From Tetmemena sp. SeJ-2015 (lineage: Eukaryota > Ciliophora > Spirotrichea > Sporadotrichida > Oxytrichidae): a DNA stretch of 64,000 nucleotides. This document shows positions 7,846 to 45,692 of this stretch, piece by piece. The notes under the pieces are model-generated. The model was not told the origin of the DNA, made no database searches, and worked only from the letters and a program-made list of their open reading frames with translations. The translations under genes and the position numbers were made by a program. Numbering within the stretch: the stretch's first letter is position 1; the number at the start of each line of letters is the position of its first letter. The DNA lies in contig JAJKFJ010021321.1 in assembly GCA_027382625.1 (NCBI GenBank), positions 31,275 through 95,274 on the forward strand, written 5' to 3'.

Positions 7846-9407
7846 TCATATGGTTAGGAGCTCAGAGACTTAGCCATCATACTTCTAAAATAGCTGGAAC
7901 ACAGCTGTGCCCAGCCGTTCTACTTTCTGCTCCAGTTTCTTGACTCTGCGCATCGCGCCTTGCCCTTCCCCTGCTTTGCCCTCGAGCTCTTTCTGTAGCT
8001 CCTTTTCTTCATCGCCAAGGTTGAGTGATATGTGATTCGTGAATTCGAACTTGTTAATGCGCTTTATCTATTCAATAGTCTATTTAATACAAGTAGAGTG
8101 AGTAAGATGATCATGATGATTATAATGATATACGATAATGAATATGATAGGTATTTTGAAGTCTCCTCCTTGTGTTCGAGGACATTTTTGCGGACTATTT
8201 CATTGTAGCGCGAGGTGATCTTCTTCTTGATCTTGGTACTAAATTCCTTGTACTTTTCGAAAAGCTGGTAGAGTCTATTCTTCCTCAGCCCATAGCAGTC
8301 CATATCAGTCAAGGCCTTGTACAGGAATTCAGATCGCTTGTGAAAGATCACAGAGTAGTCCCCGATCACCGACTTCTGACCAATCTTCACTGATAGGTAT
8401 TGCTGGTTGTTCAAGGTGTATCCCACTCCGTACTCTCATCACAAAAAGAAATTATGCAACTGTGAATAATAGCAATGATCTCCTGTGCAAACGAAAATCA
8501 CCTCATCGACCTCGTCTAAGTCGAGGAGGATCAAATCGTTCTTGAGGAATTTGCGCGGCTCTAGGCTTTGCATAACTGCCACCATGAAGGAAGAGTACTG
8601 AGAGTCGTTCCAAGAGTAGTTCTTAGATCTCTTTCTCCTGGTGTCTTCCACTTACTCACTAGCATCTCGCTCGATCGTGAAATAGGCGCGAAATAAGTAC
8701 AGATAGTTCTTGAACAAAAACTCACGGAAAATCTACAAAGAAGATGCTATCAATATGTATTGCATATGAAGCTCACATATGTTTGAAGATGAATAAGTAG
8801 AATTTGAACTTACACTTATCCTAATCTGTTTTGGGAGCTCCTGCATGAAGCGCAAGTCTTCTTCACTCTTGATAGCGTAGTTGCGATCCTTGGCCCAATA
8901 GTAGTCGAAATAGTTTTCTATCTTGCGTGTCATATCCTTGGGGAGAGGGCGTCCCTTGTTGAAGCGAGCCAGCAACCCCAGCCACTTAGTGAGGTTCTCA
9001 CTTTCCTCATTCTCTGCCGTGACAATCTTGAAAGACATGAGTATCTCTATAAAGTTGCCCATAATGAAGGAAAACACTGCCACTCCAAACAGCAGCACAA
9101 AACTCCAGATCAACCTCTCCACCTCATCAAATTAAAAGATTACGCTGTCTTTATAAGTAAAGCATTATTTTTTGGTTCATTGATGGGATGGAAATCTCCA
9201 TAGCCGACGGTTGCGAGAGTGGTGAAGGCGAAGTAGACTACCATAATCATGCTAAACTCATAACTTAATAAGTTGCAAGATATTGTTACCTCTACATGTC
9301 CTCTCTTTCCTCTTTGAGTTCTACGAAACCAAAAGTCTGAAAGAAGTTGGTGGGTTTTTGGCCCGGCTGCAACTTCTGCCCATCATTAGCCTGCCATGTG
9401 AATATAT
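7846..9407 (-). CDS. Cyclic-nucleotide-domain K+ channel, C-terminal half (pore, S6, CNBD)
   Basis: Encodes the pore and cytoplasmic end of a voltage-gated, CNBD-type K+ channel. In order: extracellular loop, selectivity filter TTLATVGYGDF, S6 (LIWSFVLLFGVAVFSF), C-linker, a cyclic-nucleotide-binding fold (FLKNDLILLDLDEVDEVIF, then KSVIGDYSV), and a coiled tail ending at TGA 7846-7848. Introns: one before SMIMVVYFAF and one after KQIRIS, both GT..AG. Three small IESs (8082-8164, 8430-8483, 9128-9180) are removed in frame. The segment begins at a 12 bp pointer (9396-9407), and S1-S5 are missing here. They lie at 33604-34443 on the same strand with the same pointer. Ciliates have large families of such channels controlling ciliary beating. 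Confidence 0.92.
8082..8164. other. IES, pointer AGTCT
   Basis: AGTCT at 8077-8081 and 8160-8164. Removal joins HKEET to IEQIKRINK in the channel tail. Confidence 0.85.
8430..8483. other. IES, pointer CTCC
   Basis: CTCC at 8426-8429 and 8480-8483. The IES carries two TGA codons; removal joins VIFVCTG to VGYTLNN in the CNBD. Confidence 0.88.
9128..9180. other. IES, pointer TCAT
   Basis: TCAT at 9124-9127 and 9177-9180. Removal joins FHPIN to EVERLIW, linking pore to S6. Confidence 0.88.
9396..9407. other. Pointer ATGTGAATATAT (pairs with 33604-33615)
   Basis: Exact 12 bp match, same orientation, at the two facing ends of the split K+ channel gene. Deleting 9408-33615 leaves one pointer and an open frame. 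Confidence 0.92.
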
Positions 9408-9518
9408 CCTTTGCAATAACAAAGAAGAAATAAGAAAATAAGGAGGTCATAATACAGCAATTAAGACATATAAAGGGAGTTATTATTAAAGTTGAGTGTA
9501 ATATATTTGTGAATTGAA

Positions 9519-11936
9519 ATGTCAACTAAACCTAAAAGCAGGCAAAACAATAATAGTAAAAAGAGTGTCAACAAGGAAGAAAAGAAGGAGAAGGTACAAA
9601 CCAAAAATACTGATCCCTCGCAGGAATAAGACGAAGAAGAAAAGTAGACTGTATCCTCTAAACCCAAGAAAGTAAAAGCTCAGCCTAAGTCTAGGGCCAA
9701 ATAACCGAGTAAGACTGAAATGACAAAGAGTGGATCTGTTGTAAAAGTAAAAAGTGAGGATGAAAGCCTAATTCCTAAATAATCTGACAAATTATACTAT
9801 ATTTTAAGACAATTTAAAAATGACAAAAAGAAAAGAGATTAGAAGGCTCAGTAAAAGGAGAAAACAAAAGAGGAAAAATAAACCACCTTGAAAGCTGAAA
9901 TTTCAAATTAAAACCCTTAGATTGAATTACCTTAACAGGAGGCTTATTAAGTTGTAGTAAAGGGCAAAAGAGGGAGGAAGGAAAAACAGGTCCCTTAGCT
10001 TCCTTAGATTAAATAAGAGCGCCAAGAGGAGCTCTCACAAAATAACCAATCAAATACGATTACTATAAGTTTGACCACACCTTTAAAAGAGAAACCCTAA
10101 AAAGAGCAAAAGCAGAAAAGAAAGACTAAATAAGCTTTTTATAATTAATGATTATACATTTAAATAGCTAAACAATCTGAAGAAGAGAAGGAGCAAAATT
10201 TACCCATGCTTAATTAAATCATTTACGAAAGTGGAGAAGACGAGCAAGATATCAAATAGAAAGCAGCCTAAAATATTAATTGCTCAAAAGCTCATGTAAA
10301 TTTATTCCCTATATTTTTGGTTGTCAAATACAAAATATTGAGTTTAGAAGCTACTTATTCCTATAGAGAAGAAGTAAAAGAAGACACCAACAGCGAAACC
10401 TAAAAAGGAAACAAAAAAGTAAATGAAAAATGCTGAAAGTAAATCTGAAAATAAGACAGCGATTATCTTCAAATCAAGCAATCTAGAGATGGATCTAGAA
10501 GCTATTCAATTATAGCAAGATGAACCTAAAATGAAGAAATCGAAAATAGGTTAACCAGCAAATCTCTAGCTAAAATAAGAAAGTAAGTCTTCTAAGAGAA
10601 GCTCAAGCAATATCAGATAAAGCAAAATAGGCGAATTCTATTATAGGGAAAAAGAAAAAAAAAAGGGGGGGTTAAAAAAAAAGAGAATATAAATTTTTTA
10701 ACTATAAGTTAGTAATGAGTTTTTAGAATCACAGAGAAGTTTTTATTCGATAAAAGTAGCTATCCTAAGACGACGTAAGTTTCTCAAACTTTTTCTCTGG
10801 TCAAGGCCTCCGAGAGAGCAGAATTAGATAAATCAAATGATAAAATCACACCTACTCAGATTTCAGTAAGCTTGCTAAAACTCTAAAATTTGTAAAAGCT
10901 AGTAACTTAATCCCCCCTCCAGAGTTTTACTTCAAGCCTAAATCGTTATTTCCATCACGTTAAGATGATTTCAAGGCAGATGTTCTATAACTTTTCAATA
11001 GAACAACTTAGCTCTTCCATATATACTCGTATGAGTCATATACAAATAGTTTAAAAATTGATGAAGACTAAGATCAATAAGCTCCCTTTAATCCATATCC
11101 TGATTAGCTACTGGCGATGAAAAGTCTGAAAGAAGCTTGGAAAGAATTATAATTCAGCTTTATTCACCACTCGATACATAGAGACGAGTCGGAGATTGAT
11201 TACTATGATGTTTTATATGAAACCCTGCTGATAGAATCTCGAAAGCTTTTGAACCCAATCGACCCTGCACCTTTCAGTCTCTAATCCTTTTCTATTAAAA
11301 ATTTTAAAATTTTTCAATTTTTTTTATAAAAATTCTCTTTTTTCTCCTTAATTTCAAAAAAAGCTATTTTAAAACCTCCTTTTAATTTTAAAAAAATTTC
11401 CCTGACAACTTTCAAACAGCTCTTGGAGACTTAGAGTCTGATTTTAAAATTCTGTCATCAACAGGAAAATAAGCAGCCCCTTTTGGAAAGGTACTGGAGA
11501 TTTTATTGGTCCAAGAGAGCGCTTTGAACTTGAGTTACAAAGATGGGAAGTAGAACATCAAGCTCGATAGAAGATTAAACCCTTTTAGAGATCACCTCAA
11601 ATTAAAGCCAGAGGAACTTTCATTAGCTGTTCTAAACAAAGTTCAGAGTATGCGTCTTTAGAATGAGTAAATGCTTTAAATGGCTAATCAGAGCTAGCAA
11701 CAATAATCAGTTGAACCTTCTATCAATCAACTGTAAATTAGGACAGCAAGGGAAGAGAATTATTAACTCAAAATGAGAACTATGAATAGTCTAACTTTGA
11801 GAAGGCTCTTGAAAAGTAAACTAAAACTGTGGAACAAATCCAAAGAGAATTAAAGAAAAGTCTGATCATGATTGGTGAATAGAAAGATGAGGGCTTATAA
11901 TAAATCTAGGAATTTATAACTAACTTCAAGATTTGA
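9519..11936 (+). CDS. Lys/Gln-rich protein with AT-hook-like motif
   Basis: ATG 9519 begins MSTKPKSRQNNNSKK; the first about 250 residues are a Lys/Gln/Glu-rich disordered stretch with a KGKRGRKEKQ patch like an AT-hook, suggesting a nuclear DNA-binding protein. A 33 bp IES (10137-10169) and a 52 nt GT..AG intron near 10297-10348 are removed in frame. The later part is better folded (FKPKSLFPSRQDDFKADV, IDYYDVLYETLLIESRKLL, then a C-terminal coil ELLTQNENYEQSNFEKAL) and ends at TGA 11934-11936. Two low-quality blocks (10640-10690, 11290-11405) and two one-base slips lie within it. No family was recognised. It starts just 111 bp beyond the channel pointer. Confidence 0.6.
10137..10169. other. 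IES, pointer AGCT
   Basis: AGCT at 10133-10136 and 10166-10169; 33 bp including one pointer. Removal joins KTKQA to KQSEEEK. Confidence 0.75.
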
Positions 11937-12108
11937 TTTTAATTAAAATACAAATCATACTTCATAGCAATAGTAATAACTGACTAAATTAAAGTTGATA
12001 GATAAAGCTTTTGGGAATTCTATATTCTACAACTGATTATTTCTATAGGATTGGAATAAATGTTCATTTATTTAATCTACAGGAAGTGGGTGGGGATTTC
12101 ACCAGTTT

Positions 12109-12623
12109 TCACTGGTAAGAGAGGTAACTAATGATGAAGAAGCCTACCATTAGTGCGAAGAAAGAGGGTTTGCTGACGATACTTTAACTAGTTTTGGCAT
12201 TAATGATGTGGATCTCCTTTCTGAGTGTGATATTGCCGACTGCATCCCAGTATTGAGAAACTTGGGAGTTCTTCTTAGTGCACTCGTCATTATCTCTAAT
12301 GAGAGAGTTGCTCTCCCTCTCATAGTGCTCCTTTATGAAGGCATTCAACAAGTCTTAGTCTTGAATGTTGTGTAGATCAAAAACAAAATCATCATGTGTA
12401 TTAGTATTGAGAGATTGGGGTAAAGGCATTGATAAATGTTGATTCTGTCGAGAGTATGGCAGGTTGAAGAAAGTCTCTCAGTGACTCTCGCTAATAGTTG
12501 AGTGTAAGTTGATGTGTAAATCTTAGGGCAGTAAGCATTTCCGAAGGGATTCATTCCACACTAGCACTGAAGGGTGAAAGTTCTAGACACGTTGTCCTCA
12601 TCAGTGTGTTCGTATAAGCATGA
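12109..12623 (-). CDS. Cys-rich secreted/membrane protein, 3' part (inverted MDSs)
   Basis: Minus-strand segment from a pointer at 12613-12623 to TGA 12109-12111. It reads SCLYEHTDEDNVSRTF, then LQCQCGMNPFGNAYCP, further Cys residues, and ends in a hydrophobic segment FFALMVGFFIISYLSY that is probably a membrane or GPI-signal helix. It has no start and no signal peptide. The 5' part lies on the plus strand at 24162-24943 and shares the pointer. A one-base slip near 12420 (in a run of four G) interrupts the frame and is probably a sequence error. Ciliate surface proteins of this Cys-rich type are common; exact function unknown. Confidence 0.8.
12613..12623. other. Inverted pointer TATAAGCATGA (pairs with 24933-24943)
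   Basis: Reverse complement TCATGCTTATA occurs at 24933-24943, where the 5' part of the Cys-rich gene ends. Joining the two at this sequence gives EDSCLYEHTDED in frame. Confidence 0.88.
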
Positions 12624-12715
12624 GATAATCTAATGGCAGTCTGATTATATGAGTATTTGTAACAATGACAATCATGAAATTAATGCATATGCAAATCAAC
12701 ACTAATTCATCATCA

Positions 12716-15294
12716 TCATTCATTCTTAATTAACTTCTGGTGGCTTTCTCTGTGGGGTTAACTCTGTCCTAACCTCTACATATCATCATATGCCTTCATT
12801 GTCTATTTGGTTTCACTAATCTGAGACATGTCCATTTTCATTAAGTGAACTCCTATACCTGCATTATTGAAGGAAACCATTTTCTCCCAACCACAGTTGG
12901 AGAATTTCTCAAAGCTCAACTTATGGCCATAGTGATGAGACTATGCTAGTACAAAAGTATTCTTCTCTAAGGTAGGGAAGTAGCGAATAAACCTTCCAAA
13001 TCGCCTGTAAAGATTCTAGAGATCCTGGTCTGTCTACCTCTGCGCTTCTTTGGACTGAACACCATAAGGGACATTTGTCAAAATGCTAAAGTCTTTAAAA
13101 CCATCAGTATGCTCAGCAAGCTAGTTCCCGATAAACTAGAAATCTCCTTGGTAGAGTGAGAGTAGCTAGGGCCTTTCTTTTTGGTTAAATAGGATTGGAG
13201 TTGATTCTTAAGATTAATTTCGAAGTTAAGTAAAACGTAATAAAGTTTGATTCACTCTCGATAATGGCTGCATCATCTTGTGACTGATTATCGTCCATTC
13301 TTTAAATATTAAACCTCTTTGGATAGTGCTGACTGAAGATCAAAGGATGATTGATAATTTTTCTTTTCTCCGCTCTTACAAGTCCCTCGGTAATCAGCTT
13401 TTCTATATCTGTATGTTCGCAATTAGAAATACTTGTCTATATAAACTGACTGAAAGAGAAAAAATTTTGATATATAGCGGCCTGACTGACATCACTACCT
13501 ATCAGCTATATATCTATTTCATTCTTTCTCACCATTTTTTAGTAGTCATTCAAGTCTTCTTTGAATTTTTCATAGTCTTCTCTTTGATGAATTGGCCAGA
13601 ATTCAAAAGGCAGTCTATCACTAAATACTCTCACTGGCTGTTTAAGCATCATCATCAGTGCCAAAATGTATAATTAAAACTATGAGAGTGCCTCAATGAG
13701 AAAAGAGCCGGATCCACAGAAGGGGTCCCAGAGATAGAGCTTGCCGGTTTTGTTCGCCTTTTAAATTACACCAGACTCTATAATACAAGCAGCAGCTAAA
13801 GTTTCCTTCAACACTCCCCATCTCACAAATGGTCTGAAGCCGTGCTTGTAAAGGTCATCGTTACTGGTTCCAAGCAAAATTTCTGCTTTGTCCTTGACTA
13901 TATTGATCTAAATCTTTGACAGAGATTTAAGTCCTTTCTGAAATTCTATCTTCGCTCTGAATTCAGCTTTAACTTCATCTAGACTCTTTATTTTTAGATC
14001 ATGCTTGTCTTGCTTTTCAGGGACTATGTGTCCATCAATATCTCTGTCATCATCTTCTTCTTCATGATCTATTTGACTCTCAGCATAATAAAAATACCCA
14101 AATCAATTACAATTATTTATTAACTAGAGCATATTATGAATTATCAGTATCTTATTATAGTCCAAGTTCCTTTCTGCGCTGCTCTCTGATTTCTTCCTTC
14201 TTTTCTATCTTTGATTGAACTATGTTACTAACCTTATCTTGCTTTTAAATTTCTTTCTTCTCAAGCCATTAAACAAAATTTTAATGGCATTAAAATTTAT
14301 TTTAGGACAAGAAAAACTATTATAAAAAAATTATTCATTCAGCATGTGAATTAAAAAATAATTTAGAAGGCTAGATTCAAAAGAATTTCATGGATATTTT
14401 TTTCTTAATCATTATGATAAATAAGGTAACTCTCAATGTAAATATTTTTATTAGATAATATTTTTTAAATAATTCATATTCTACTAACAAATCTAATCTT
14501 TCTAATTGAAGATCATTTTATAGATTTCTTATTTTTATTATCTTTTTTTTTATAAACATATCTGGCTCCATTTTTCACCTGCTTATTTGTAATTTTTTTA
14601 TAGAAAAAAGTTTCCTCTATATTAAATAAAAATTAAGCCATTACTTCTTGAAGGTTTTGTAGTTAAGACCTTGCTAATACCCCTTCAAGATCAATCCATT
14701 ATTCTGATATCTCTTATATTCTCTTTTAATAGGTATCTCTACTAAAGCTTTGGCTACTATATCCTTAACTAGCTGTGTATGATATAGCTTTGATTTGTAA
14801 GACTTCGCGCCAATCTAAGGCATTTTAAATTAAAGTTCTTCTTCCTCTTCATCTCTCACCCTATTAGATTATGTATTTTTATCTTGGCTTCCTTATTCAC
14901 TCTCAGGCACTATTTACTCTATCTCTATATAGCCTCCATCACTCTGCATCTACACTTTTCTTTTAGGTGGAGTGACTTTGGACTACGACTTTGCTTTTGA
15001 CTTGTCTGGGTTGGGTAAGTAGCAGTGCCACGGGAGCTTCTGGATATTTTTCTCAAGCTCCTCCTCTCCTCTAGCCAGGAAGGGCTATGTGACTCTCAGC
15101 TGGATGTCTTCCACAATTCTGGACTTGTGCATTATCTCCCACAGCATGTCTTGCTTGCCCTGGATCTCAATTACTTTCCTCCCCGGAAGTTTTCTTGGCT
15201 TGGAACCTAAACCAAGAGAGAGAAGTTCCTTTATGAGTGTCTTCTCTAAACCAAGAGGAGGCCGCAACCTATAGGTGTATATTGTGGCTGACAT
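12716..15294 (-). CDS. THUMP/UPF0020-type SAM-dependent RNA methyltransferase
   Basis: Probably methylates guanosine in RNA (RlmL/TRMT11-14/THUMPD-like superfamily). Start MSATIYTYRLRPPLGLEK at 15294 matches the N-terminal ferredoxin/THUMP region. Next comes an insert rich in Lys and acidic residues, then LYKHGFRPFVRWGVLKETLA, the SAM motif DPFCGSGSFLIEAL, LPFEFWPIH, IGSDVSQAA, and the catalytic-type motif TNVPYG (usual form NPPYG). Stop TGA 12716-12718. A 372 bp IES (14272-14643) and a GT..AG intron near 14090-14136 are removed in frame. Between GSDVSQAA and the TNVPYG region the protein is longer than expected and AGTCAG occurs three times, so an unrecognised IES is likely. Confidence 0.85.
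14272..14643. other. IES, pointer AAGCCATTA, 372 bp
   Basis: AAGCCATTA at 14263-14271 and 14635-14643 flanks a very AT-rich segment. Removal joins KTFKKQWL to EKKEIQKQD in the methyltransferase. Confidence 0.92.
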
Positions 15295-15446
15295 TATTCC
15301 TTAAATTACTATTTCAATACTTTATCTCAATCTAGTTTACATTAATATACTTATATTCTGAATTGTCATGAATACGCTTGACAGAGTAATTTAAATTGGG
15401 AATTAGGTTTGTCTGCTATCATCATTAAATTTCAAGCAGCAGTAAA

Positions 15447-17010
15447 ATGGTAGACAAATAACTCAAGTAAACTTCTTTCTATTTGCTTATCTCATTAATT
15501 ATAGAATAAGCCAGTCCTCCAAGTGCCCTCTTAAGGTAAAGCAAAAGATCACGATGTCCGACTGCAACGGAGGCGCCCTCTCGATTTAGTTTGACTAGGA
15601 TGACAAGTTTCTTGCCGTGGGTATGTTATAAGATCGCTTTGAAAGCAGTAGAAAATCTCTCAAAATCTTTGAACTTCTTTCTGTTAATGTTGTGTATAGG
15701 ATGTGGAGATGGAACTATCAAGATATTTAATGCATTCACTGCTAAGCAAATATAGAGTCTCGGCAATAACTAGCATCATTCAGAATAAATGCCGGTCACA
15801 TGCGTCCGCTGGCGACCTCAAAGCTCTTTAAAACTTGACAAAATAATTTTAAATAAAGGATAATGCAAATAAAATGTGCAAGTATGATAAATTAGGGTAA
15901 TGGAAAAAAGGAAAGGGTAAAATTGTCTGAGTTTAAACCATAAATACCTTAAAGATTTTAAACTCTGATTAGGGATAGAAGGCTTCAAATGTTGTAGTGT
16001 CGACGACTTCAGATGGATCGATACAACATTGGATCTAAAAAATTATTACATTCATCATCTTAACTTTTTTGGGCAATTAATTCCAGCAAATGCATGCACA
16101 CAATCAAAGAGGAGAGCGGTAATAATCTCTATGCTCTGGATTTCTCTCCTGATGGAAGGCTATTTGCAGCTGGAGGTCAAGACACTCACTTGTACGTATA
16201 TGATGAACAAACGAGGCAGCAGGTGCTAGACATGAAAGTTGGAGGGAAGAATATACCTGGCCACTCAAGTCGAATTTTCTCCATTAAGTTCAGATGAAAC
16301 CATATTATTTTGTGTGTTAAAAGAGTTCAATTAGAGCAATCCCAACATGATATTGAGTGGAGGGTGGGACAGAACCTATCTAGATTTATGACTTGAGAGA
16401 GGGGCGAACCATTGGTAGTATTTACGGACCTCAAATAAGCGGTGATGCTTTGGACATCCACGATGACTTAATAGTAACTGGCAGTAATAGGAACAAAGAC
16501 ATCATTCAAATGTTCAGTCTCTCCCAGAGGAAGGCCATCTTCAATATAGATTGGGAAAGTGCCTCCAGAAAAGATCATATTCTAAGTTATATAGCATTTC
16601 TTGATTAAACTTTTCTCTTTAAGATGTTGAAGCAGGCTACTTATTTGGGTGCAAGTTCTCAAGACCTCATCCAAATTTAATAATAGCAGGAGGTGCAGGA
16701 AAGAATGAAGTGAAGATTCTGGAGAATAACGCAGATGGATCTGCAAACTTCAGAATCTTAACTCACATTCACGATCTAGAATCTCCCTGCCTTGTCAGTG
16801 GACACCACCAAATCTGGAGATAACTTTGCCTTTGGCTGTCAAGATGGCCGCGTATTTCTCTGTAACTATAAAATTGAAGATAAAAAAATTCAACCTCCTT
16901 TTTATAAAGTGTATAAGTTGTTTAAGATAGCTCTGACTTCGAAGGATATAATGGAGGAACCTTCAAAGAGCACACTATATATTCCTAAAAATAATAAAAA
17001 GCTTTAACTT
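15447..17010 (+). CDS. WD40-repeat protein
   Basis: A beta-propeller scaffold, partner unknown. Start MVDKQLK at 15447. Two introns (GTAAAC..TATAG and GTATGT..TATAG) lead into WD repeats: GALSIQFDQDDKFLAVG, MPVTCVRWRP, VVVSTTSDGSIQHW, LYALDFSPDGRLFAAGG, SSRIFSIKF then MILSGGWDRT, IYDLREGRTIGSIYG, YLFGCKFS, and FAFGCQDGRVFLCNY. Four IESs (15833-15962, 16033-16072, 16293-16329, 16576-16625) are removed in frame. Single-base slips near 16380 and 16796 look like errors. The real stop is unclear; the frame stays open without TGA to about 17425, and coding character fades near 17000. WD proteins with this layout are frequent in cilia and trafficking. Confidence 0.85.
15833..15962. other. IES, pointer TTTAAA
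   Basis: TTTAAA at 15827-15832 and 15957-15962. Removal joins RWRPQSSL to NSDQGQKASN. Confidence 0.75.
16033..16072. other. IES, pointer TTGG
   Basis: TTGG at 16029-16032 and 16069-16072. Removal joins GSIQHW to AINSSKCMHTI, a normal WD-repeat transition. Confidence 0.85.
16293..16329. other. IES, pointer AGTTCA
   Basis: AGTTCA at 16287-16292 and 16324-16329. Removal joins RIFSIKF to NQSNPNMILSGG. Confidence 0.88.
16576..16625. other. IES, pointer AAGAT
   Basis: AAGAT at 16571-16575 and 16621-16625. Removal joins ESASRKD to VEAGYLFG. Confidence 0.88.
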
Positions 17011-17452
17011 ATAAAAATATAAGTAGCGATCTTGATTAAAAACATATACACTAAGAAATCCAATAGAGAAGGATTGCTCTCTTCCTTCTTTATTTTTTAT
17101 TACAGAGTCATTAGAAAATTAAATAAAAAAATTACGTTAATTAATTTGAGTGGTTATAATGATTATCATGTTTATAATAATCTACTCATCATACTCGGCA
17201 TATTCGTGACTAGGAAGAAGAGGAGGAAAAGAAGGAACAGAGTTGATGATTATTACTTAAAGAATCACTTATTAACGTTATTCATGCATGCATTATTATT
17301 TAATCTTAGTAAAAAGCAGCTCACATAAAATTTAAAGTTCCAAAGCATGATGATATTTATTGTTATTATTGTATTAAAATAAATAATTAAGTCGACTCAT
17401 CTTCTCCTTATTTTATAATGAGTTACTGATTATTTTTATTAACTTTTTTATA

Positions 17453-19961: not shown

Positions 19962-20106
19962 TTTTATCATGATAATTAAGATATTAGATTATAGCAATAA
20001 TACTATAACTATCTAGAGTCATCATTTGATTATTAGAATTGATTTTCCTGAGTTTAAGGTAGATAACCTAATATTTTAATTTATAAGACAATAATATATT
20101 ATTTTA

Positions 20107-21220: not shown

Positions 21221-21396
21221 ATTCACTCATATTTTAAATTCCTTCTACAATTAAAATATTTATTCACTAATCGAAGATAAGGTTGAATGATAGGAGTTCA
21301 AGCAAAAGATATTTTATTCTAAAGGGAATTAATAATAAGCATTTATAAAATATAAAAACTAGATAAATATATAAAAGAATTCAGAAATCAATCTGA

Positions 21397-21980
21397 AATG
21401 CAAATTATCATCAACACCTAGTTTTCTGAATGATCTTGCTTATCAATTGCTGACTTTTTCATGATTGTTGTCTTAAGTCTTCCAAGGCTTAGCTTTTCAA
21501 TTGAAAAATATTTTCTCTGAAATATTTTTAAAAATATATTTTATTTGTTCAAGGTCTAAATAAATACGAGGATAGTCCTCTTGTCAAATCATTTTTTAGT
21601 GATAAACTGTAATTTTGAAATTTTATAGCTCTAATTTTATATGAACACAAAAGATAAATCTCCTTGGTGAGCCATTCAGATTCAAAAGGGGAATCACACA
21701 AATTTACTCTCTATCAGCAAGCTACATAGAAAGAACTCTTTCGTTTTTTGAGTAAATCTCTATAAAAATGATTGCTAGTTCTTTTCTTAAGCTGCTGAGT
21801 GTTTTATTTAAATTACTTAATATCGCTGAATTCATTTTCTCATGTGCTAGCTAAGTATACCGCAAAAAAATTTTGCAATAAATTAAGACTCAATAAATTA
21901 TTAAATTAAATAGCAAAACTATTTCTCAATCACTCATCACTTTAGCATCCACTCTCTTTCTAAACTCCAAATATTTTTGT
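21397..21980. other. AT-rich spacer
   Basis: No supported frame; between COX10 and the EI24-like gene. Confidence 0.6.
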
Positions 21981-21984
21981 ATCG

Positions 21985-23919: not shown

Positions 23920-24161
23920 TTATTCAAATATGCTCTTTTGATTTTCTTAATCATCTTATATTTCGGCATGAAAGTCCATTAGATCACAAGCAAAGTAGCT
24001 AGCTTAAGTAAAATACTCTCTTTGAGAAAAGGTTTATATCCAGGATGAAAAGCGGGCGTTAGAAATGAATGAAATTTAATGTTGGGATGGGAATAGTAGT
24101 TATAATAAATTTAATTCTTGATTTGAATAATCACACATTTACACGTAACTCTAGAAAGAAA

Positions 24162-24943
24162 ATGAGACGCTAAACTGTGAAACTTACTCTGCTGTTACCC
24201 ATTATGGCAGCTACTGCTCAAGCACAAGAAAAGGCAAAGCCAACTAACATGGCTACCAATTTCGGATAGTTTGACTCGACTAAGACTTGTCCAACTGTTC
24301 AGTGCGTACCTGATGAACGCATGAATGGAATGGACTTCTGTCACAAGAGAGAGATCATTGAGCCAGATACCATATATTTGAAAAGATGCCCTGGTGACAA
24401 GAACATGTGTCATCATTAGCTCAACCGTTGCGTTGCTGACCCCTACATTCAGTACTCTGGGCTCTTAGCTGGCTCTCTCTGTGAATTCGATTTCTAATGC
24501 GCAAGTTAAAAGTGCGACTGGAGAGGCGAAGAGGATTCTTTCATACTTGAGGGAGAGGATGCCATATTCAATAATGGAGACTTGAAGGGAAGATGCTCAG
24601 CTCCCGTAGATTTCAAATAAGAGAACACGTGTTCAACTTCTCAAGATTGCAATGTTGGATTCTATTGTGACTCTATGGCTCTTACTTGCCGTCTTTAAAA
24701 GCAAGAGCTTGCTTCTTGCACGAGAAATGAACAATGCCAGAACTCTTTCACATGCGCTAATGAGTAATGTGTGAAGTATGGAAGCATAAAGAACTTCTAG
24801 AAATCTGACAATGGTTTAGCATGTGTCAGTGGCTTCACTGGTCAAAATGACAATGGAGAATTCATTTGTCTCTCAACACCTTCTATCATCGATAAAGAGG
24901 GGCCAAACTTCCAGTGCAGTTCAATTGAGGACTCATGCTTATA
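24162..24943 (+). CDS. Cys-rich secreted/membrane protein, 5' part
   Basis: Start MRRQTVKLTLLLPIMAATAQ at 24162 is a signal peptide with a likely cleavage after AQA. The mature part has about 25 cysteines in repeating clusters (TCPTVQCVPDERM, RCPGDKNMCHHQLNRC, CSTSQDCNVGFYCDS, CTRNEQCQNSFTC, EQCVKYGS), a secreted adhesive or surface-receptor style. The coding sequence runs smoothly to the pointer TCATGCTTATA at 24933-24943, after which the frame degenerates into a basic tail ending at TGA 25014-25016. The matching pointer and the rest of the protein are at 12109-12623 on the other strand. No IES or intron is needed within this part. Confidence 0.85.
24933..24943. other. Pointer TCATGCTTATA (pairs with inverted copy at 12613-12623)
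   Basis: Exact 11 bp match to the reverse complement of 12613-12623. The junction restores a Cys-rich frame across an inversion. Confidence 0.88.
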
Positions 24944-25036
24944 TTTAAAGAAGAGAAGTATAAGAGGATATAAAAAGAGAAGAAGAATTGAAAATAGAGA
25001 CTTAAAAGTGAGATGACTCTAAATTTGAATTAAGTT

Positions 25037-25381
25037 TCATAGTGCACAGGCAAATAAAGTTACAATAACGTAGAGAAAGTCATTTTCATACCTCACTGAT
25101 GTCTATCCATCGGTGCTAGAGTTCCAGAAGCAACTTTAAGTTAGCTCAAGTTGGTCCCCTGATGCGGACTTCTTTTGCATGGCAGATGTAACCACCATAT
25201 ATTTGAAGTTCTAGTTATTATTAAGTAACTGTTTGACACACTCCTCATTAGTTTAGCCTATTTATGTTGCAGTTGTAGTCTAATTATATTCCTTGTTTTG
25301 GAAGATTCTTGAGCAAATATTTTGAATGATGGCCTCGCTTTCTTATCTGATGTGGCCGAATACCACGCTATCTTGCGGCAT
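25037..25381 (-). CDS. DYNLT1: Tctex-type dynein light chain (DYNLT1)
   Basis: A 114-residue light chain that dimerises on dynein intermediate chain in cytoplasmic or axonemal dynein. The frame runs uninterrupted from ATG 25381 (MPQDSVVFGHIRQE) to TGA 25037-25039, close to the 113 residues of the animal protein. Family features: N-terminal helices (EAIIQNICSRIFQNKEY, TNEECVKQLLNNNQNFKY), the first strand MVVTSAMQKKSA, the signature CFWNSSTDGQTSVRYEND (animal form CFWDSSTDGSCTVRWENK), and the final strand FLYVIVTLFACAL. No introns or IESs are present, an unusually compact germline gene. The product is probably encoded by its own small macronuclear chromosome. Confidence 0.93.
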
Positions 25382-26005
25382 TACTCTCCTAATTGATTTA
25401 TTAAATTTAAATTTATAAACGACTGTACCTATTTTCAAAGCTTTTATTAAACTTAATGAAATGGCTTTAGAAATAAACTTAATGAGGAGAATAGTAAGAA
25501 AGAAGAATAAGATATTTTATTATCCACTTAATTAAGGGTAATTAATTATTACATATAGGTTAAAAATCTTCTTTTTAAGGAATTAGAGTCTATCTAGGAT
25601 GATAACTTAAGTCTACTGATGATTTTTTGGCTAAATTATTTTAGTTTATTTATCATTTAAGTTTAATGTAAATTCAATCTTCTTCTTCCCAGTCTACAGG
25701 GCTAAAGTTGTTGTTGTTTGCTGACCATTATAAAATTTACTCTCTGCTACAGATAGCCTTTATTAGTTATCTCATACATTAAGATAGATAGAGGGAAACA
25801 TTACAGAGGAGATATGAGCAAATCTCTCTATTGCACTTGCCCTATCGCCCTCAAACCCATGAGCTAAGCTGCTAAAGCTTCTCAGATGATATACTTAGTT
25901 AGTTATTAGCAGATATTATATTAGTATCTGTTGAAACTCAGTGGCCAGAGTGCTTCACCGTTGCTCTGATGAAGGCACCTCTCACACACTGTTTATTGCG
26001 AGCGC

Positions 26006-29000
26006 TCAGTAGGGCTTGTAGGCTCTGTCCTACTGGCTGCTCATTTACTGAGGAGCGTACTTAGATCTAGCAGGGCCATATTGCTTGGCGCCCTCTTGAA
26101 GAGTGAAGGCTGATTAGTTGGGAAGTTGCTCCTGTTGGTGAGGGTTGATGATAGTAGCCTTAGTCTCTTTCTAGTTATCGTTGCTGTTTTGAGGATGTGG
26201 TCTTAGAGGCGGTGTCTTGGCTGTTATCTGAGGCCAAGAAGTTGCCATCCTCCTTTTAAGAGCTAATGTTAAGCATGTTCTCTCCCAGAGAGAGACTGAT
26301 GTGAGAGGGGGCATGGAACTGCTTAGGGACTGGCTCACTTAGGGAAACCTGCTTTTGCTCAGCATTTGAATGATGAGAGTGATGGGATCTCTGAATAGGT
26401 GAGTCCTAGTTAGTGAGTCAAAATAGACTACTATATATAGAGGAATTTTAAGAAATGAACAATTTTAAAAAATTAAGTTTCTTAAAGACAGGAAACTGCT
26501 CTTATGATTATATCGCGAATATGGATAGTTTGAGATGCAATAATTTATAACATTTCAGAAGTAATCTCATAAAATCCTAATTGATCACTTACTAGAAAAC
26601 CTTTGCCATTATTAGCTTTATCCTTTGCAACTCTTTTATTTTCAATTAAAACCCCACAATAGCTATTTAACGTAGAGAGAAATAAATGTTTATGAGGTTA
26701 TGCTGGGAATTGTGTGATTATCTTGAGTCTTAGAGCTACTTTTTAACTTGCTAAGAATCATCATGACTATGCTCGATGTCTTCTTCCTCGATAGGAATGT
26801 TAATCTATTACTGTTGCTTTATTCTGTTACTCTATAGGTGATTCTAGATCTCTTAACTCAAGTCAAGGGTGTTGTTGAAGAATGAAATTCCCTGACTGAA
26901 GAAAGAGTTATCAGCGACTAGACTATCCTGACTCACATCTTGGAGCAGGATGGAATCCTGCTTGCTCTAGTCAGCTACAACTTGCTACTGAACTTAGAAA
27001 CTGCTGAACATGTTTTAGAAAAGGGGCTGGTACTATTGCTGCTGCTGCTGTTAGCTGGAGCTTACTGAAGTTTAGCTAGGTCTGTTTCTATCTGCCTGCT
27101 CAACAGCGGGCTTGTGTTACATTTGCTAGATCTAGCTTTGGAACTGAGCGGCTTCAGTTTACTGCTGCTTGCTTCCCTGGCTCATGTTTTGAACAAAGGC
27201 CTATGCAAAGGCTGAGTTGAACTACATAGACTAGTTAACCAAATTTTGATTGCTAGCAGGAGTCTGTTATGAGGTATTGCTCACTGGTTTTGACTCCTCG
27301 TGGTGGCTTCCAGTGCTGCTGTGACTAGTGTTGTGCAGCTTTGAGTTGTTCTGAGCAATTTACTTCTGCACCTGTTAAGGATTCAATTGGGGAGGGACAG
27401 CAGTCTGAGGGAAATAGCTGCTGCTATTGCTAGTGTTGATGCTTTAATTCTAACCTCCAAAGCTGAAGTTTTGTTGTGCGTTGCTCAAGTTCATCTGTGC
27501 GCCCATGCCCATATTCTGCCCGTAGCTATGGTTACCTCCTTACATGCTCATCTAGAGCGGATTGTTGAAGTTAGGCTGACCTGAGTTAAAGTTCATACCT
27601 CCCATGGGTGGTTTGCCAACACTGTTGCTGCTGGCATTTGGATTGAAATTGAAGTTACCCTGGTTGCTATTGTTGAAGAACTGGCTTTGCTGCTAGTTCT
27701 GATTAAACATTTGTTGCTGATGTTGTTGTTGAGGGTTGAATTATTGCGAGTTGCCATTGCTGTTGAAATAGTTTGAGAAGTTCTAGTTGAACTGGTTTGC
27801 AGTAGAGTTAGGCCCCATAATGTTTTGACCGTCGAAGGAGGGGTTACCTTGCATGGGGTATCCTGACTGATTAAAAGTATGGTTTTGGGGTTAGAAGTTA
27901 GGTACACCCTGATATCCGTTTAATAAAAGAGCATACTAAAAAAGGGTTTCTATCTCCCAGAGAGAGTTAATAAAAATTTTAAGAAATAGCAAAGATATAA
28001 AGTTAGTCTTGGAATTGCTTAGTCAAGTTGGATGCTTGTTGGAAGCCAGGTTGATTGTTTTGTGGATAGTTATTGTTATTGAACTAAGAGTTATTGGAAG
28101 ACTACTACTGCTGCGGGTTGAATCCTTGGGAGTGATTATTATTTTAATTATAATATGGAGTATTCTATCCACCTGAGAAGTTTCAATAAATTATCATAAT
28201 CAAGAACCACTGAGTAGAATAACACTTTTAATGAGTTTGAATTCTGTGAGTACATATTCATGTTGTTCATATTTTATTGTTGCTAGTACTGAGAACCCAC
28301 TTGCATGTTGTTGTAGCCTTGTCCGCCCATACCCATGTTGGGATTGAAGTTGTGGGGACCGTTTTAGAACTACTGATAAGACGACTGATAAGATTACTGA
28401 TTGTGGCCATTCATGTATTGATTGTTCTGCCCATTAGGCCCTGATATTTAAACTTCTTTCCTACAAATCGATCAATTCAAGTAAACTCTTCTCAATTTTA
28501 AGTTTACTACTAGTTATAAAAGTTTTACTATTGCATCTGATAATTAATATTTGGGTTGCCCATAGTCATCTGTTGTTGCTGCTGGCCCTAGGGATAGAAG
28601 GGTTGAGATTACATCTGAGATTAGTTGAAGTTGAAGTTGCCTTGGCCCTGGGGGAAGAAGCTATTTGTTTGCTGTGGTTATAACTACTGTTGCTGGTTGG
28701 AATGCTAAGTCTGAGCAGCCATCACGAATTATTACCAAAGTTAAAAAAAAACCATCATATATACCTCTTAAAATATCCACTACACTTGGGTGATAGTTAG
28801 AGTTTTATTATTATTGCTAGTTTATAAAATCGGATGCGATTTTATCGATTAATTATTTGAATTGCAATTGTTAATCGACGCTCAAAAATTAAATGCCACT
28901 TACGCCCTGGCTGCTATCAGTGCCAGCCGTAGTTGAGGGACTGTGGAGGGCCCTAGTCTCAAATGAATCTTTCTAACTTTTTTAGAAAGATGAGCTTTGG

Positions 29001-29927
29001 CTCTTAATCTCTTCCTAGCCGTGGTTGAGAGAACTCTCACTTGAGAGGGTCTCGCTCCTCCGCATTTAATTTAGCGACTGGTCTAATTAATTCTGGAATG
29101 TCTGGTTGTGGAATACATTCTTTCCAGATTCAGGACTCTTGCCTTCTGGCCTTGTGTCAGAGATGTCAGAGAAAATTCCTCCCATACTTGAGTTGGGGTC
29201 TTAACTGATGGCGCCATGGTTTGGGAGCTTTTTGAAAATCTTTTCTTGCTGAGAGGCGAGTCTTTAGCTCTGGCTCTTTTCTTGCTTGGCTCGCTGGAGA
29301 ATCTGATGATTAATGGGCATGGCTCGCTTGCAGTCCACCCATTTTCCATTGAGGTAGTGCTAGTCTTTGTCATTTAAAAGACGATCGACGCTCATTTATT
29401 ACTCGAATGTTACAAAACCGAAACCCCGAGATTTCAAAGAGTTCTTATCCACCATGATGCTGCACTCTAAAAATAAAATAATCTTGTATTGTTTAGCAAT
29501 TGAAATAGTGATATTAGAGTTGCTAAATGCTTTAAGGATAAGAAATTAAGAGACTCATCAATAGGACCGTATTTTCCGAAGTAATCCCTGAGATGATTTG
29601 CAGTGATGTCGTGAGTGAGTCCTCCCACGAAGACCTTGTTAATTGCTTTTTCTAGATTCTGTCCTTCTTCTTCCTCTGAGAACGTGGTATTTTATACCTT
29701 CAAAAATACATCTTCTCATAAAATACCTTTACTTCAAATAGAAGTCAAAGCTATAAGGCATTAAAACACATTTTTATAACCTTAGAGTTTGAATCACATT
29801 GGATTTTCTGATAAGAGGCACTTATAATACTAATATTGCTTTGGCTCCCAGAAAAGTTAGACTTCTAAAAGCCCTACCTCACATAAGCATCCGAGTAACC
29901 CATAGTCTGAAGCGCATTTGATGTCAT
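26006..29927 (-). CDS. RRM RNA-binding protein with long Gln/Asn-rich prion-like tail
   Basis: An hnRNP/Musashi-style protein. Start MTSNALQTMGYSDAYVRQ at 29927. One RRM has RNP2 KVFVGGL and RNP1 SRGFGFVTF, with the linker YGPIDECSIMVDKNSLK restored by removing an 89 bp IES (29468-29556). A Ser/Gln-rich region follows, then several hundred residues rich in Gln, Asn, Gly, Met and Ser (GQGNFNFNQSQ, NMGMGGQGYNNMQ, FNPQQQHQQQMFNQNQQQ), typical of phase-separating prion-like domains. Introns GTAAGTGG..CTCAG (about 28720-28910) and GTAGTAAAC..TTGTAG (about 28450-28500) keep the frame; two more IESs (26406-26729, 28177-28240) are called. The end DRAYKPY, TGA 26006-26008, follows a one-base slip near 26200. 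Probably acts in mRNP control. Confidence 0.88.
26406..26729. other. IES, pointer TGAGTC, 324 bp
   Basis: TGAGTC at 26400-26405 and 26724-26729 (a further copy at 26413-26418). Removal joins QLQDS to PIQRSHHSHH. Confidence 0.85.
28177..28240. other. IES, pointer TGA (3 bp)
   Basis: TGA at 28174-28176 and 28238-28240. Removal joins YSQNS to GGQNTPYY. The pointer is short, so the exact edge is less certain. Confidence 0.6.
29468..29556. other. IES, pointer ACTC
   Basis: ACTC at 29464-29467 and 29553-29556. Removal restores the RRM loop GPIDECSIMVDKN between RNP2 and RNP1. Confidence 0.9.
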
Positions 29928-30839
29928 CTCGCTTTTTTTCTCTTTTCTAATAAGTTAATCTTAATATTCCTCAAATACATATTCACTCTCTACGAAACAT
30001 TATACAATTTAAAGAATTATGAAATCCGATTATCATCTTTAGTACTCATCTTCATTATCATTGATTACATTTGTATTTTTGCGATAATTCTAAATTTCAT
30101 ACTTATTTAACTTATAGTTTTCCCCTTGCTGATAATTAAGGAGAGATCTACCCTAAATCTTGGTGGTGTCCCCCTATCTCACTAGGGCATCCTATAAAAA
30201 TTATTAAAACTTGATAACCAACCTCCCCCTTCACATCTTTAGTACACAAGAGATAGAAAATGAATTTAATTTAATTTGTCCACATGAAGTTATTTGGGCT
30301 GATATCTGGTTTAGCCTTCAGATAACTTAGCTTAACTCTAGCTAACTTTCTACTAATTTTTTGGGTTTTGTTGCGATTTACAGCCTTTCTGTTATATTTC
30401 TTGGTACATTAAATCCTCTAACTATATATCGCAGCTATCATATTTATGATGTATTTTTGTATGTGGGTGGTACATGACAGGTGCGGATTGATAAATAGGA
30501 ACTTTCTATGATGTGTGTGAGGGTCCGTGGATAATTTATTAACTAAAACTAAGATTCTTATATCAGCGGCAAGATAACCTCTGATAAAAATTGCGGTCGT
30601 GAGCTAATTAATTTGCCTAACCACCTACTAAATAGAGCACACCCAGATTTCGCTAATGGAAAGTTCTATCACCCACTTAAGCAAAAATATAGCCCCTCCT
30701 TAACTTACCCTCAAGCTTCTTTTCTCATTATTTTCACTTTTTCATGCCATTAATCTACCCTATAAGAGGAATATGATAAAGAGTAGAGTGGAATTTAATT
30801 AGATTTTGGAGATGTAATTATTAGAAATTTAAATTTGCT
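29928..30839. other. AT-rich interval with one possible small membrane ORF
   Basis: Largely non-coding. It holds the promoter side of the RRM gene and a single hydrophobic ORF at 30260-30511 described separately. Confidence 0.5.
30260..30511 (+). CDS. Possible small multi-pass membrane protein, 83 residues
   Basis: With UAR as Gln, ATG 30260 to TGA 30509-30511 codes for MNLIQFVHMKLFGLISGLAF, then two strongly hydrophobic stretches (TLANFLLIFWVLLRFTAFLL and QLYIAAIIFMMYFCMWVV). AT-rich DNA can give hydrophobic spurious ORFs, and nothing else supports it. Confidence 0.25.
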
Positions 30840-32423
30840 ATGTTGAGGAAAGCTATCCAAGTAAGCATCTAGCAACAGTAAGAGAATAAAACTATTTACT
30901 TACATATAAAAGGATAAACGATGAACTGGAGGATCAGTCGAATGAAAGAGGAGAAATTTTCTCTCACTAAGATTCTAACATGGAAGATGGATTCTTAAGT
31001 AAGGAGTTATTTAAAATAATTTTTATCATGATCTTTCGAATTTTATGAAGTCAGAACGACTATAAGAGTCTAAAATAAATGAAAGATTCAGCTATATCCC
31101 TCACGTAATTACTCTCAAATATTTAAATTTAAATTGTAAATGCTCAGAGATAAACGACTTATGAATTCCAAGAGCAACAAGAATTGGGAATGAGAACTTC
31201 TATTCTTACAAATGAGCTTTCAAAGCAAGTTTTGAGCAAGAGGCAGTAAGAAAATGATTCAGACCAGTCTAGCTTCCTCTTGGACGGTGTGGTTTACTCT
31301 TTCCAAAGTTAGCTCCTCCCAGGCAGAGATTCAATGTAAGATATTATTACTCTCCAATACTTAATCTCAACAAGATACCTTTCAACAAAAAATATCCTCT
31401 AGCTAACTATTTGAATTTAACAGCCTATAACTTTATTTATTCTTTCTTGCAGCGAGAGTAGAGCAGCTCTCAATGGGATAATGAGAATGAGTGTAGGCAT
31501 GCAACCCAGACATTCTAAAACTAATCTAGAGAACATTGTTGAAGAGAGTAATCCAAGGTAAGAAGCAAAGTATAAAATTCTATTAAGCAAATAAAGACAA
31601 TTTATTTATGATGCTTCTAATATTTTTGGAGGTTATTTAAAGCACAAAATAATCAAATTTAACAATATAAGTAAAGTTAAATTATTAAATTCAGAGAAAT
31701 ATTACTGAAATAGGATGCCTACGAATATGGAATTCTATTTTAATTTATCTTCCCCTGCAATTATTTCTTTATCATATTTGATTTTCATAAATCTATAGCG
31801 ATACTCAAGAAAAGATTTTAGAGGAAGAGGAGGAAAAGAATGGGCGAATTCAGAGTTTCTCTCCTTAAAATCGAGCACCTCAATATGCAGAGACTCCTTT
31901 CAAGACCCTGGTTGACATATCTAATGTTAAGAGAAGAAATGAAAGCATCATGCGACAAAGCGTCAGACCCTTAACTTTAAATTCTCAAGTTTTGCAAGGA
32001 AGAAATACTGAGTCAGATAAAACTATGCAGCAAGAGTCTCAATTCTAAAGTTAAGAGCAGCATGTCACTCAAGCTTATTGCATTTTCAACTATAAGGTAA
32101 AATGCAAACCAATAAATTGGCAAAAGATAGAAAATTCCTTTAATATCCCCGTCTTCTTCGATTTCTTGATCTTACATTTCGCAAATTTCTGACATTAGTT
32201 TTAGACTGAGGACTTTCCAAAAGAAGCTGAGATGATAAAGAAAATCTTTGCAGATTACTTCCCAATGTTTAAAGGCTTTATCAGGCTCTTGCCCAGGCAC
32301 TATAACACGCCTTTCTTGAAAAAGAACTTCATGAGAGTCTTCGATAGAGAGTCAGGAGGTACTATACTATCAAATTTTGAACTTATTTATAGACATGATT
32401 GGATTCATGGTGCCATGCTTTGA
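30840..32423 (+). CDS. Unrecognised multi-exon gene
   Basis: Coding blocks run on the plus strand from a possible ATG at 30840 to TGA 32421-32423. Clear introns are GTAAGATATT..CTTGCAG (31338-31452), GTAAGAAG..CTATAG (about 31558-31799) and GTAAAATGC..GTTTTAG (about 32097-32202); each keeps the frame. The protein has a Gln/Glu-rich N-terminal part (QEQQELGMRTSILTNELSK, SFLLDGVVYSFQSQLLPG), an acidic middle (EKILEEEEEKNGRIQSF) and a more ordered C-terminal block (KKIFADYFPMFKGFIRLL, FDRESGGTILSNFELIYRH). The first exon junction near 31000 does not splice cleanly and may hide an IES. No domain was recognised. Confidence 0.6.
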
Positions 32424-32554
32424 CTTTTAAGATCCAGAATAGTGGATTTAATTTGCAGATGCTTATGATGACTGAATTATTTAGAACTTCCTTTTAAGCT
32501 ATAAAAAGTATTATAATTGAAATACGAAGTTTGATAAAATAAATTAACAAGATA

Positions 32555-33554
32555 ATGGAAGGGCAATAATTAGAGAGTGAATACAAAGTGAGGGACTTCA
32601 TTTTTGAAAGGCTTTTGAATAACAATCAAGATTAAAAGATCATCTATCTGCTTGGGCATATGAGAGAAAGAGACCCTGAGATCAAGGCGATTCTTAAGCT
32701 AGAGAAGCTATCCTTCGATGATAAAATCCTATCTCAGTTAGGGCAAGATACTTTATCTACTGATCATCAGAATGCAAATGCAAACTAAGAATTGATAAAA
32801 TCAGAGGATCATTTCTTTCAGAACGACATCTATAGCAAATTTATGATATGGCTAAAAGATGATGCTGCTAAAACTGAAGCAGAGATCAATTATCCAGCAC
32901 CCTAGTTCTTAATTAATAAGTATTCAACTCAAAAAGTGCACATCATATCAGAGACTCCTAAGATGTACTTTGATTACGTAAGACCCTAATATATTGAGAA
33001 ACTGGAGAAGCCTTAGTGGCTCTATAACGTTCTCGAAGGCACTAACCCCATAGAAGAGGAGAGGAAGCTTTTCTAAAATGAGGAATTTATGCTTCAAATG
33101 GACTATAAAATGGTGAGTGAAGATATAGAGACACTTCACCTGCTCGCCATGCCTTTTGATAGAACAATTTACACTCTACGAGAACTAAATGAAACTCACC
33201 TTCCTATGCTTAAATCAGTGAGAGATGAAGAGTTATAAGGTTCTCAGAGATAAATTCAAACTTGGCTAATCGTAAGTGAGGGCCTTCTTCCACTACTATC
33301 CAACATTCTATCATCTGCATATCCATTTCTGCCACATCAAACTCATAGAGAAGAAAGGTGCTCATTTAGGCAAGGGAGTGCTTTTGGAAGATGTAATTGA
33401 AAATATTGAAATGAAGAGCGATTACTATCAGAAGAAGAGCATGTCTGTTCTTAAATCACTTCATTTAGAGTTTTTTTTTTAAGTTGTTTTGGTAGGAGAT
33501 ACTTCAAAAATTTATCAGATCTTCAAAGAAATCAAGCTCATAGATATTGATTGA
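32555..33554 (+). CDS. DCPS: Scavenger mRNA-decapping enzyme DcpS
   Basis: Hydrolyses the residual m7GpppN cap after 3'-5' mRNA decay; cytosol and nucleus; HIT family. Start MEGQQLESEYKVRDF at 32555, TGA 33552-33554, about 330 residues, the family size. The N-terminal swapped domain ends with LINKYSTQKVHIISETP; the C-terminal HIT domain has KMYFDYVRPQYIEKLE, QWLYNVLEGTNPIEEERKL, TLRELNETHLPMLKSVRDE, FFHYYPTFYHL and the catalytic HIT motif HLHIHF. A one-base slip just before VRAFFHYYP (near 33273) is probably a sequence error. No IES is present. It ends 50 bp before the channel pointer at 33604. Confidence 0.95.
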
Positions 33555-33603
33555 ACTTATTAAATTCCTCATTCCTCCTCTTTTCTGATGTTTGTATCTT
33601 AAA

Positions 33604-33615
33604 ATGTGAATATAT
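33604..33615. other. Pointer ATGTGAATATAT (pairs with 9396-9407)
   Basis: Distal copy of the channel pointer; flanking bases differ from the other copy (A vs C on both sides), so the match is exactly 12 bp. Confidence 0.92.
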
Positions 33616-34443: not shown

Positions 34444-34619
34444 TTACTGCATAAATGACTTCCGATTACGATCGTTGTTATCAATCATAACGATAAAACT
34501 AATCTTTGAATTTTATATTTAAGCTTGAAATAAAATAGGAATATGTAAAGATTGTAATATAAATTTCCATTTCGATTAAAAAATAAGATTATAGAATCGT
34601 TCTCTCACGATGCTCAGTT

Positions 34620-45690: not shown

Positions 45691-45692
45691 AA

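Follow-up and report, generated by a model that had tools for sequence, protein, structure and literature searches.

A potassium-channel gene in three blocks, predicted to join at two 12-bp pointers around other genes of a likely ciliate germline locus

The closest described relatives of the locus treated here, a K+ channel gene in a 64,000-nt stretch of Tetmemena sp. SeJ-2015 DNA (the window; part of contig C2400 of an assembly of 146 Mb and 5,213 contigs), are the ‘Russian doll’ loci of Oxytricha trifallax and Tetmemena, in which macronuclear-destined segments (MDSs) of other chromosomes lie between the MDSs of one gene. Passages of Braun 2018 (PMC5940158) define a nested locus as one in which all or some MDSs of one nanochromosome are surrounded by MDSs of another; by the counts given there, 1,301 of 15,811 Oxytricha macronuclear contigs contain MDSs of others, and nesting reaches a depth of up to 4. 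Long pointers bridge such loci, and complete non-scrambled loci are embedded in them (PMC5940158, PMC9797194); an 18-bp pointer that spans two other loci is described, as is a further long, conserved one that spans three (Feng 2022, PMC9797194). A second precedent is the actin I gene of Stylonychia lemnae, whose 5' segments are inverted and whose assembly takes removal of internally eliminated sequences (IESs) plus inversion; according to the passages on this gene, pointers are about 4 bp at non-scrambled and about 9 bp at scrambled junctions (PMC2394655).

The channel gene probably belongs to this documented nested and scrambled kind, and what sets it apart is the large number of genes spanned by a single pointer pair. 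Foreign genes lie between its blocks much as MDSs of other chromosomes do in the ‘Russian doll’ examples, but here a single 12-bp pair bridges 24.2 kb, within which six or more genes have domain support, and the nesting depth established is one layer. As in actin I, 5' coding sequence is inverted and the scrambled pointers are the longer ones. Unlike actin I, the channel has just two scrambled junctions, and distances from kilobases up to tens of kilobases separate its blocks; foreign genes lie in these gaps, and the actin I passages of PMC2394655 make no mention of such genes. An earlier reading of the window from its letters, the original prediction, had recognized the ‘Russian doll’ kinship and called the size and gene load striking; the kinship is supported, and the size and nesting are indeed striking, although nesting itself was already documented (PMC5940158). 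We conclude, with a probability of about 0.9, that the window holds a three-block scrambled ciliate germline locus, that seven or more other genes separate the blocks, and that joining is predicted to take place at two 12-bp pointers.

Three blocks and two pointer junctions

With TAA and TAG decoded as glutamine throughout, the channel gene occupies three blocks over 30 kb, in the germline order A (plus strand), C (minus), B (minus). In product terms this is M1, M3-inverted, M2-inverted, and the pointer word is 1 2 2 1.

4630..5491, plus strand: block A (M1 side), N-terminal coding, with a candidate ATG at 4630 and ending in the pointer at 5480-5491
5480..5491, plus strand: scrambled pointer 1, first copy, TATGATTGATAA, with one occurrence per strand in the window
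34478..34489, minus strand: scrambled pointer 1, second copy, inverted
33604..34489, minus strand: block B (M2 side), S1 to S5
33604..33615, minus strand: scrambled pointer 2, first copy, reading ATATATTCACAT on the minus strand
9396..9407, minus strand: scrambled pointer 2, second copy
7846..9407, minus strand: block C (M3 side), pore TVGYGD, S6 and a region like a cyclic-nucleotide-binding domain (CNBD), with the TGA stop at 7846-7848

Once introns and IESs are taken out, blocks A, B and C form one frame of 878 codons, from the ATG at 4630 to the TGA at 7846-7848. Two relatives of this predicted product, P0001 and P0002, carry the channel as a contiguous protein. P0001 is a EukProt record, apparently Oxytricha-like, and P0002 bears the source name Stylonychia lemnae cation channel.

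Blocks B and C lie on the same strand with their facing ends 24.2 kb apart. The 12-mer ATGTGAATATAT has exactly two occurrences in the window, at 9396-9407 and 33604-33615 (0.03 expected), in direct orientation, which confirms the original claim of a channel gene split across 24.2 kb with a shared 12-bp repeat. The repeat is exactly 12 bp because the bases beyond each side differ, and for any two given points the chance of falling inside a direct match of at least 12 bp is about 3.5e-6 (all pairs 15-35 kb apart in this window). Joining at the repeat reads ...SYFIGTLWYIFTWQANDGQ... and links ...FIGTLWY with IFTWQANDG... in a single frame. The resulting 608-amino-acid protein has 36 protein matches at E up to 0.001; P0001 shares 78% identity with it over 100% of the query and P0002 70% over 96%. 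Both are contiguous through the B-C junction, and the uninterrupted frame expected on joining is borne out. With a 300-nt query of the joined B-C sequence, the 146-Mb assembly gave a single match to either half, each of them on this contig (2 candidates, both scored), and no joined form.

Deletion at the direct pointer (9396/33604) is by itself sufficient to restore S1 to the CNBD-like region, and the original prediction had taken the channel to be in two pieces, with the interval as a giant IES from the channel's viewpoint. A two-piece gene of this kind, without scrambling, would leave about 250 N-terminal residues missing. P0001 extends more than 100 residues N-terminal of the region coded at 34.4 kb, and a tblastn search of the window with 37 queries (the 36 protein matches and one N-terminal piece) matched residues 84-119 of P0002 to 5309-5401 on the plus strand (E=0.002). 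In a single comparison, the block A peptide matches P0002 with E=3e-05. The longest word shared between 5.2-5.8 kb on the plus strand and 34.4-34.8 kb on the minus strand, among about 240,000 position pairs, is the inverted 12-mer of pointer 1; in the window, the chance of an inverted match of at least 12 bp at a specified pair is about 3.9e-6. Joined at this repeat, the frame ...RRMSIRKIDKGRQIEIEMNSTSMIDNNDRNRKSFMQQMIITKQSRWKG... matches ...SGRKGDKRANEIENANFGLIENDPKIKKSFFQQLIITKQNKWKS... of P0001, which is contiguous across the A-B junction; P0002 is gapped there, yet matches block A immediately upstream (DFFGIVTVDDENG). Each half of a 300-nt joined A-B query occurs once, on this contig, and this DNA query likewise found no joined form in the assembly.

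Both 12-bp repeats terminate blocks that protein alignment makes adjacent, one direct (B-C) and one inverted (A-B), so that segments out of order and inverted have a pointer at every junction of a product predicted from the relatives. Because block A lies inverted beyond block C, and the frame is continuous through the inverted pointer, the channel gene is scrambled, more than merely interrupted by a giant IES. Its assembly therefore requires inversion plus excision or bypass. The pointer-flanked join of the original prediction survives, whereas its sole giant IES is an incomplete account: inversion is needed, genes lie inside the interval, and the third, inverted block at 4630-5491 had been overlooked. 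Its S1-S5 block was correctly located at 33604-34443 but runs on to 34489. The weak conservation of block A speaks for simple nesting, and we consider a single giant IES without scrambling improbable.

Conservation and domains agree with a K+ channel. The 878-residue product is 72.6% identical to P0001 over residues 180-878 and 64.5% identical to P0002 over residues 215-878; against P0001, 163 of 210 aligned residues are identical in block B and 326 of 413 in block C. The joined protein scores 52 bits for Ion_trans and 49.2 bits for Ion_trans_2 in Pfam, whereas block B by itself gives no Ion_trans match within the E limit of 0.01. These domains and the K+ selectivity filter TVGYGD are both features of the EAG/HCN/AKT group of cyclic-nucleotide-binding-type K+ channels, and there are Protein Data Bank (PDB) matches to AKT1, KAT and KCNH. 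The pore and S6 placed at 7846-9407 by the original prediction are there; the CNBD of block C is only suggested by its sequence (Pfam cNMP_binding, 23.0 bits versus a cut-off of 27.5).

Short insertions and the genes between the blocks

Within the channel gene lie seven short insertions of 36-83 bp and 17-33% G+C, flanked by direct repeats of 4-7 bp.

4568..4620, plus strand: small IES, TCGAATT at 4568 and 4614, 46 bp, direct 7-bp repeat, no GT-AG register
5220..5296, plus strand: small IES, pointer TAATGTG at 5220 and 5290, 70 bp, no GT-AG register; removal restores NNVQTEQSPTSKKRK
34131..34170, minus strand: small IES, pointer TAGC(G), 36 bp
33871..33924, minus strand: small IES, pointer AAGC, 50 bp
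9124..9180, minus strand: small IES, pointer ATGA, 53 bp
8434..8482, minus strand: small IES, pointer GAGA, 45 bp, containing in-frame TGA stops
8077..8164, minus strand: small IES, pointer AGACT, 83 bp

These insertions fit conventional hypotrich IESs: they are short, carry a direct repeat, are not of GT-AG type, and restore the gene on precise removal. The TCGAATT insertion is less certain as an IES, and its restoration less certain too, as it precedes the candidate start of the final protein. Reading the seven as introns was rejected because no GT-AG register yields the same product for any of them; cutting the TAGC(G) and TAATGTG insertions as introns destroyed the frame, and both are read instead as IESs flanked by pointers. 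The gene also has six GT-AG introns, one of them in block A and the other five in blocks B and C. The pointers of the gene (4-7 bp at the small IESs, 12 bp at each of the two scrambled junctions) follow the contrast between non-scrambled and scrambled junctions reported in the passages of PMC2394655.

The 24.2-kb interval differs from such IESs in being gene-rich and in its 12-bp pointer. Between the blocks we find the following.

5659..6660, minus strand: thymidine kinase gene between blocks A and C (Pfam TK, 86.5 and 30.3 bits in two frames, cut-off 20.6)
7115..7621, minus strand: small open reading frame gene between blocks A and C, from an open reading frame and the codon-score scan
9408..33603: stretch separating block C from block B; six or more genes here, distributed over both strands, have domain support
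13478..13838, minus strand: RlmKL-type (UPF0020) methyltransferase domain, 29.2 bits versus 22.3, covering only positions 2-87 of the 197 of the profile
16067..16330, plus strand: WD40-type propeller stretch, WD40 at 27.4 bits, barely over the cut-off of 27
20233..21195, plus strand: COX10-type UbiA prenyltransferase, UbiA match at 20.4-21.1 kb
22999..23719, plus strand: EI24 domain
25051..25333, minus strand: Tctex-1 dynein light chain
29341..29631, minus strand: RRM in two pieces, 20.1 versus a Pfam cut-off of 20.7, just under
32588..33345, plus strand: DcpS, with two families (DcpS, DcpS_C)

Across the scanned frames of 9408-33613, six genes on both strands carry seven Pfam families over the curated cut-offs; with the thymidine kinase, the whole span between the blocks holds at least seven genes with a domain over cut-off. 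The COX10, EI24, dynein light chain and DcpS genes named by the original prediction are all among them. Assignment of the UbiA gene to COX10 is consistent with its relatives, since 4 of 42 have the source name protoheme IX farnesyltransferase and 3 of 42 heme o synthase. The UPF0020 region has PDB matches to bacterial methylases, and over the WD40 stretch four propeller families score under their cut-offs. One of the two protein matches of DcpS comes from Stylonychia, on a 6,383-bp contig, and the Stylonychia channel is on a contig of 2,852 bp. A weak Dickkopf_N match in the interval (18.5 versus 25) was left uncounted.

The codon-score scan, which is rough and was trained on the channel and the Pfam-supported pieces, adds further coding stretches in the interval; a version retrained on its own output drifted toward Q/N-rich stretches and was dropped. 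The ‘about a dozen’ genes of the original prediction thus hold as to both strands and six domain-supported genes, and the full dozen within 24.2 kb is plausible, not proven. PDB searches gave no match for 15.3-20.2 kb on the plus strand (one frame) or for 12.1-14.2 kb on the minus strand (two of three frames), and scans of the window with Rfam (gathering threshold) and ARAGORN found nothing. Among the Pfam matches listed for 9408-33603 (E up to 0.01) there is no transposase family. The six-frame Pfam scan of the window reached 49.5 kb of its 64 kb. Downstream of the RRM pieces, 26009-29688 on the minus strand is coding sequence with a long run rich in Q and N, and may specify an RNA-binding protein whose tail is of low complexity.

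A conventional IES is germline-only DNA that is removed as a unit and is usually short. Because at least six domain-supported genes lie inside it, the 24.2-kb interval is not ‘eliminated sequence’ in the usual sense. Set against the definition of nesting in PMC5940158, the genes between the blocks are observed, and their separate chromosomes are predicted; in Stylonychia, the contigs of the channel and of DcpS differ in length.

The assembly is likely that of a spirotrich germline, probably from a hypotrich, because many genes lie in the window without telomere repeats and DDE_3 transposases are abundant. No C4A4/G4T4 telomere repeat occurs in the gene-rich window. DDE_3 (Tc1/mariner-type) transposases were scored for 150 of 921 candidates, and those listed are all above the cut-off. 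Among 67 listed matches of the C4A4 repeat, judged at contig starts, 11 contigs have it at position 1 or 9; the pattern is identical when reversed, so that the reversed control is uninformative. These observations lend indirect support to the earlier claim of germline DNA. On contig C126 (G000:C126:8437-12810), two internal C4A4 repeats, both on the plus strand, are 4.3 kb apart, a spacing that we take to be about that of a telomere-bearing transposon.

The window has further features. At 35714-41626, next to the channel, alpha-2-macroglobulin-like coding sequence lies on both strands: what we take, from its motif, to be an N-terminal-like part is on the plus strand from 35.7 kb, and the minus strand has a TED domain (39.8 bits versus a cut-off of 22) and an A2M match under its cut-off (19.3 versus 21). 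Either two paralogues or another gene that is scrambled and inverted may account for this region. Direct repeats at 34620-35640 and 45576-46643 (pieces 77-93% identical) adjoin block B, and others at 41002-42018 and 46773-47854 (pieces 72-94% identical) fall in the macroglobulin-like region; such kilobase repeats may be partial copies of genes or may be limited to the germline. At 62217-62303 and 62681-62767 stand the arms of a perfect inverted repeat, 87 bp each and 377 bp apart, perhaps a small transposon-like element.

Weighing the scrambled-gene reading

Several points weigh against a scrambled three-block gene. The cuts (six introns, seven IESs) were chosen by eye for frame continuity, and for this reason the open reading through 878 codons is in part a product of that choice; in blocks B and C, all cuts but the TAGC one had been fixed before the relatives were compared. 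Pfam is no test of the join, because block C alone keeps Ion_trans_2 (51.6 bits, versus 49.2 in the joined protein). The inverted repeat came from the search of about 240,000 pairs, in which about 0.07 matches of at least 12 bp are expected, a number that falls to about 0.002 for the roughly 5,400 pairs compatible with the protein edges, by arithmetic from the measured rate. The tblastn match that led to block A, in a run of 37 queries, had an E-value of only 0.002. Over its 252 residues block A is weakly conserved, with 37 of 122 aligned residues identical to P0002 and 22 of 100 to P0001. This low identity relative to blocks B and C makes the far N-terminus the weak part, and its start codon (ATG 4630) is a guess. 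The joined product and the separate chromosomes of the inner genes are predictions from germline sequence and relatives. Finally, the second-copy negative comes from DNA searches, and a diverged intact copy may exist elsewhere.

Such a copy, as a diverged paralogue beyond the reach of DNA-level searches, would also leave room for the locus to be a broken remnant of a rearranged chromosome, with the working channel gene elsewhere. Against this, 878 codons run without a stop once inserts and introns are removed, and blocks B and C have kept their high identity to P0001. A complete separate channel gene was what the original prediction had named as refuting, and in DNA searches neither junction region turned up a second time. 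We regard a remnant as quite unlikely.

We give still less credence to an assembly artefact, in which a chimeric contig or misjoin set the halves 24 kb apart. The block arrangement is known from the assembled contig. But a misjoin would not yield exact 12-bp repeats at two independent junctions predicted from protein, one direct and one inverted; in addition, the window has no undetermined bases (N), and the DcpS gene comes as close as about 260 bp to the edge at 33604.

Least credible of all is joining in RNA, by a 24-kb intron or trans-splicing, for although the channel gene does carry GT-AG introns, the 24.2-kb join has a GT-AG in 0 of its 13 same-product registers and no frame-keeping GT-AG pair whose donor and acceptor lie at most 30-42 nt from the starts of the two repeats (nearby pairs break the frame), genes lie on both strands inside the interval, and block A is on the opposite strand, so that no single transcript spans the three blocks.

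Proposed assembly and its meaning

For the scrambled channel gene we propose an assembly in which the seven small IESs would be removed first. Recombination at the direct 12-bp pointer would then join B to C, with the 24.2 kb either released or bypassed. At the inverted 12-bp pointer, recombination would turn the B-C unit over and attach it to block A. This order follows passages of PMC2394655 on time-courses of scrambled genes in Stylonychia and Oxytricha, where removal of conventional IESs usually comes first and inversion or translocation later. By analogy with Oxytricha (PMC5940158), RNA copies of the old macronuclear chromosome may guide the joining.

The domain-supported genes inside make it likely that the interval is kept in another form. 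The intervening genes would be retained as their own chromosomes; these could derive from the segment once it is released, or else the replicated germline chromosome could supply them from its other copies. We lean, by a modest amount, toward the wider view that one 12-bp pointer pair bridges about a dozen independent genes with somatic chromosomes of their own, so that 24 kb of DNA ‘eliminated’ with respect to one gene would be retained with respect to many others. If this is true, the developing nucleus resolves two incompatible readings of one DNA stretch, for example through different replicated chromosome copies or through processing of the excised 24-kb segment.

The locus is a compact test case for ciliate DNA joining over tens of kilobases. 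In the same gene, two long-range joins at 12-bp pointers, one direct and one inverted, stand beside seven short IESs with pointers of 4-7 bp. Because domain-supported genes sit between its blocks, it also raises a question that can be tested, namely whether the intervening DNA is released and then processed, or whether different germline copies are used for different products.

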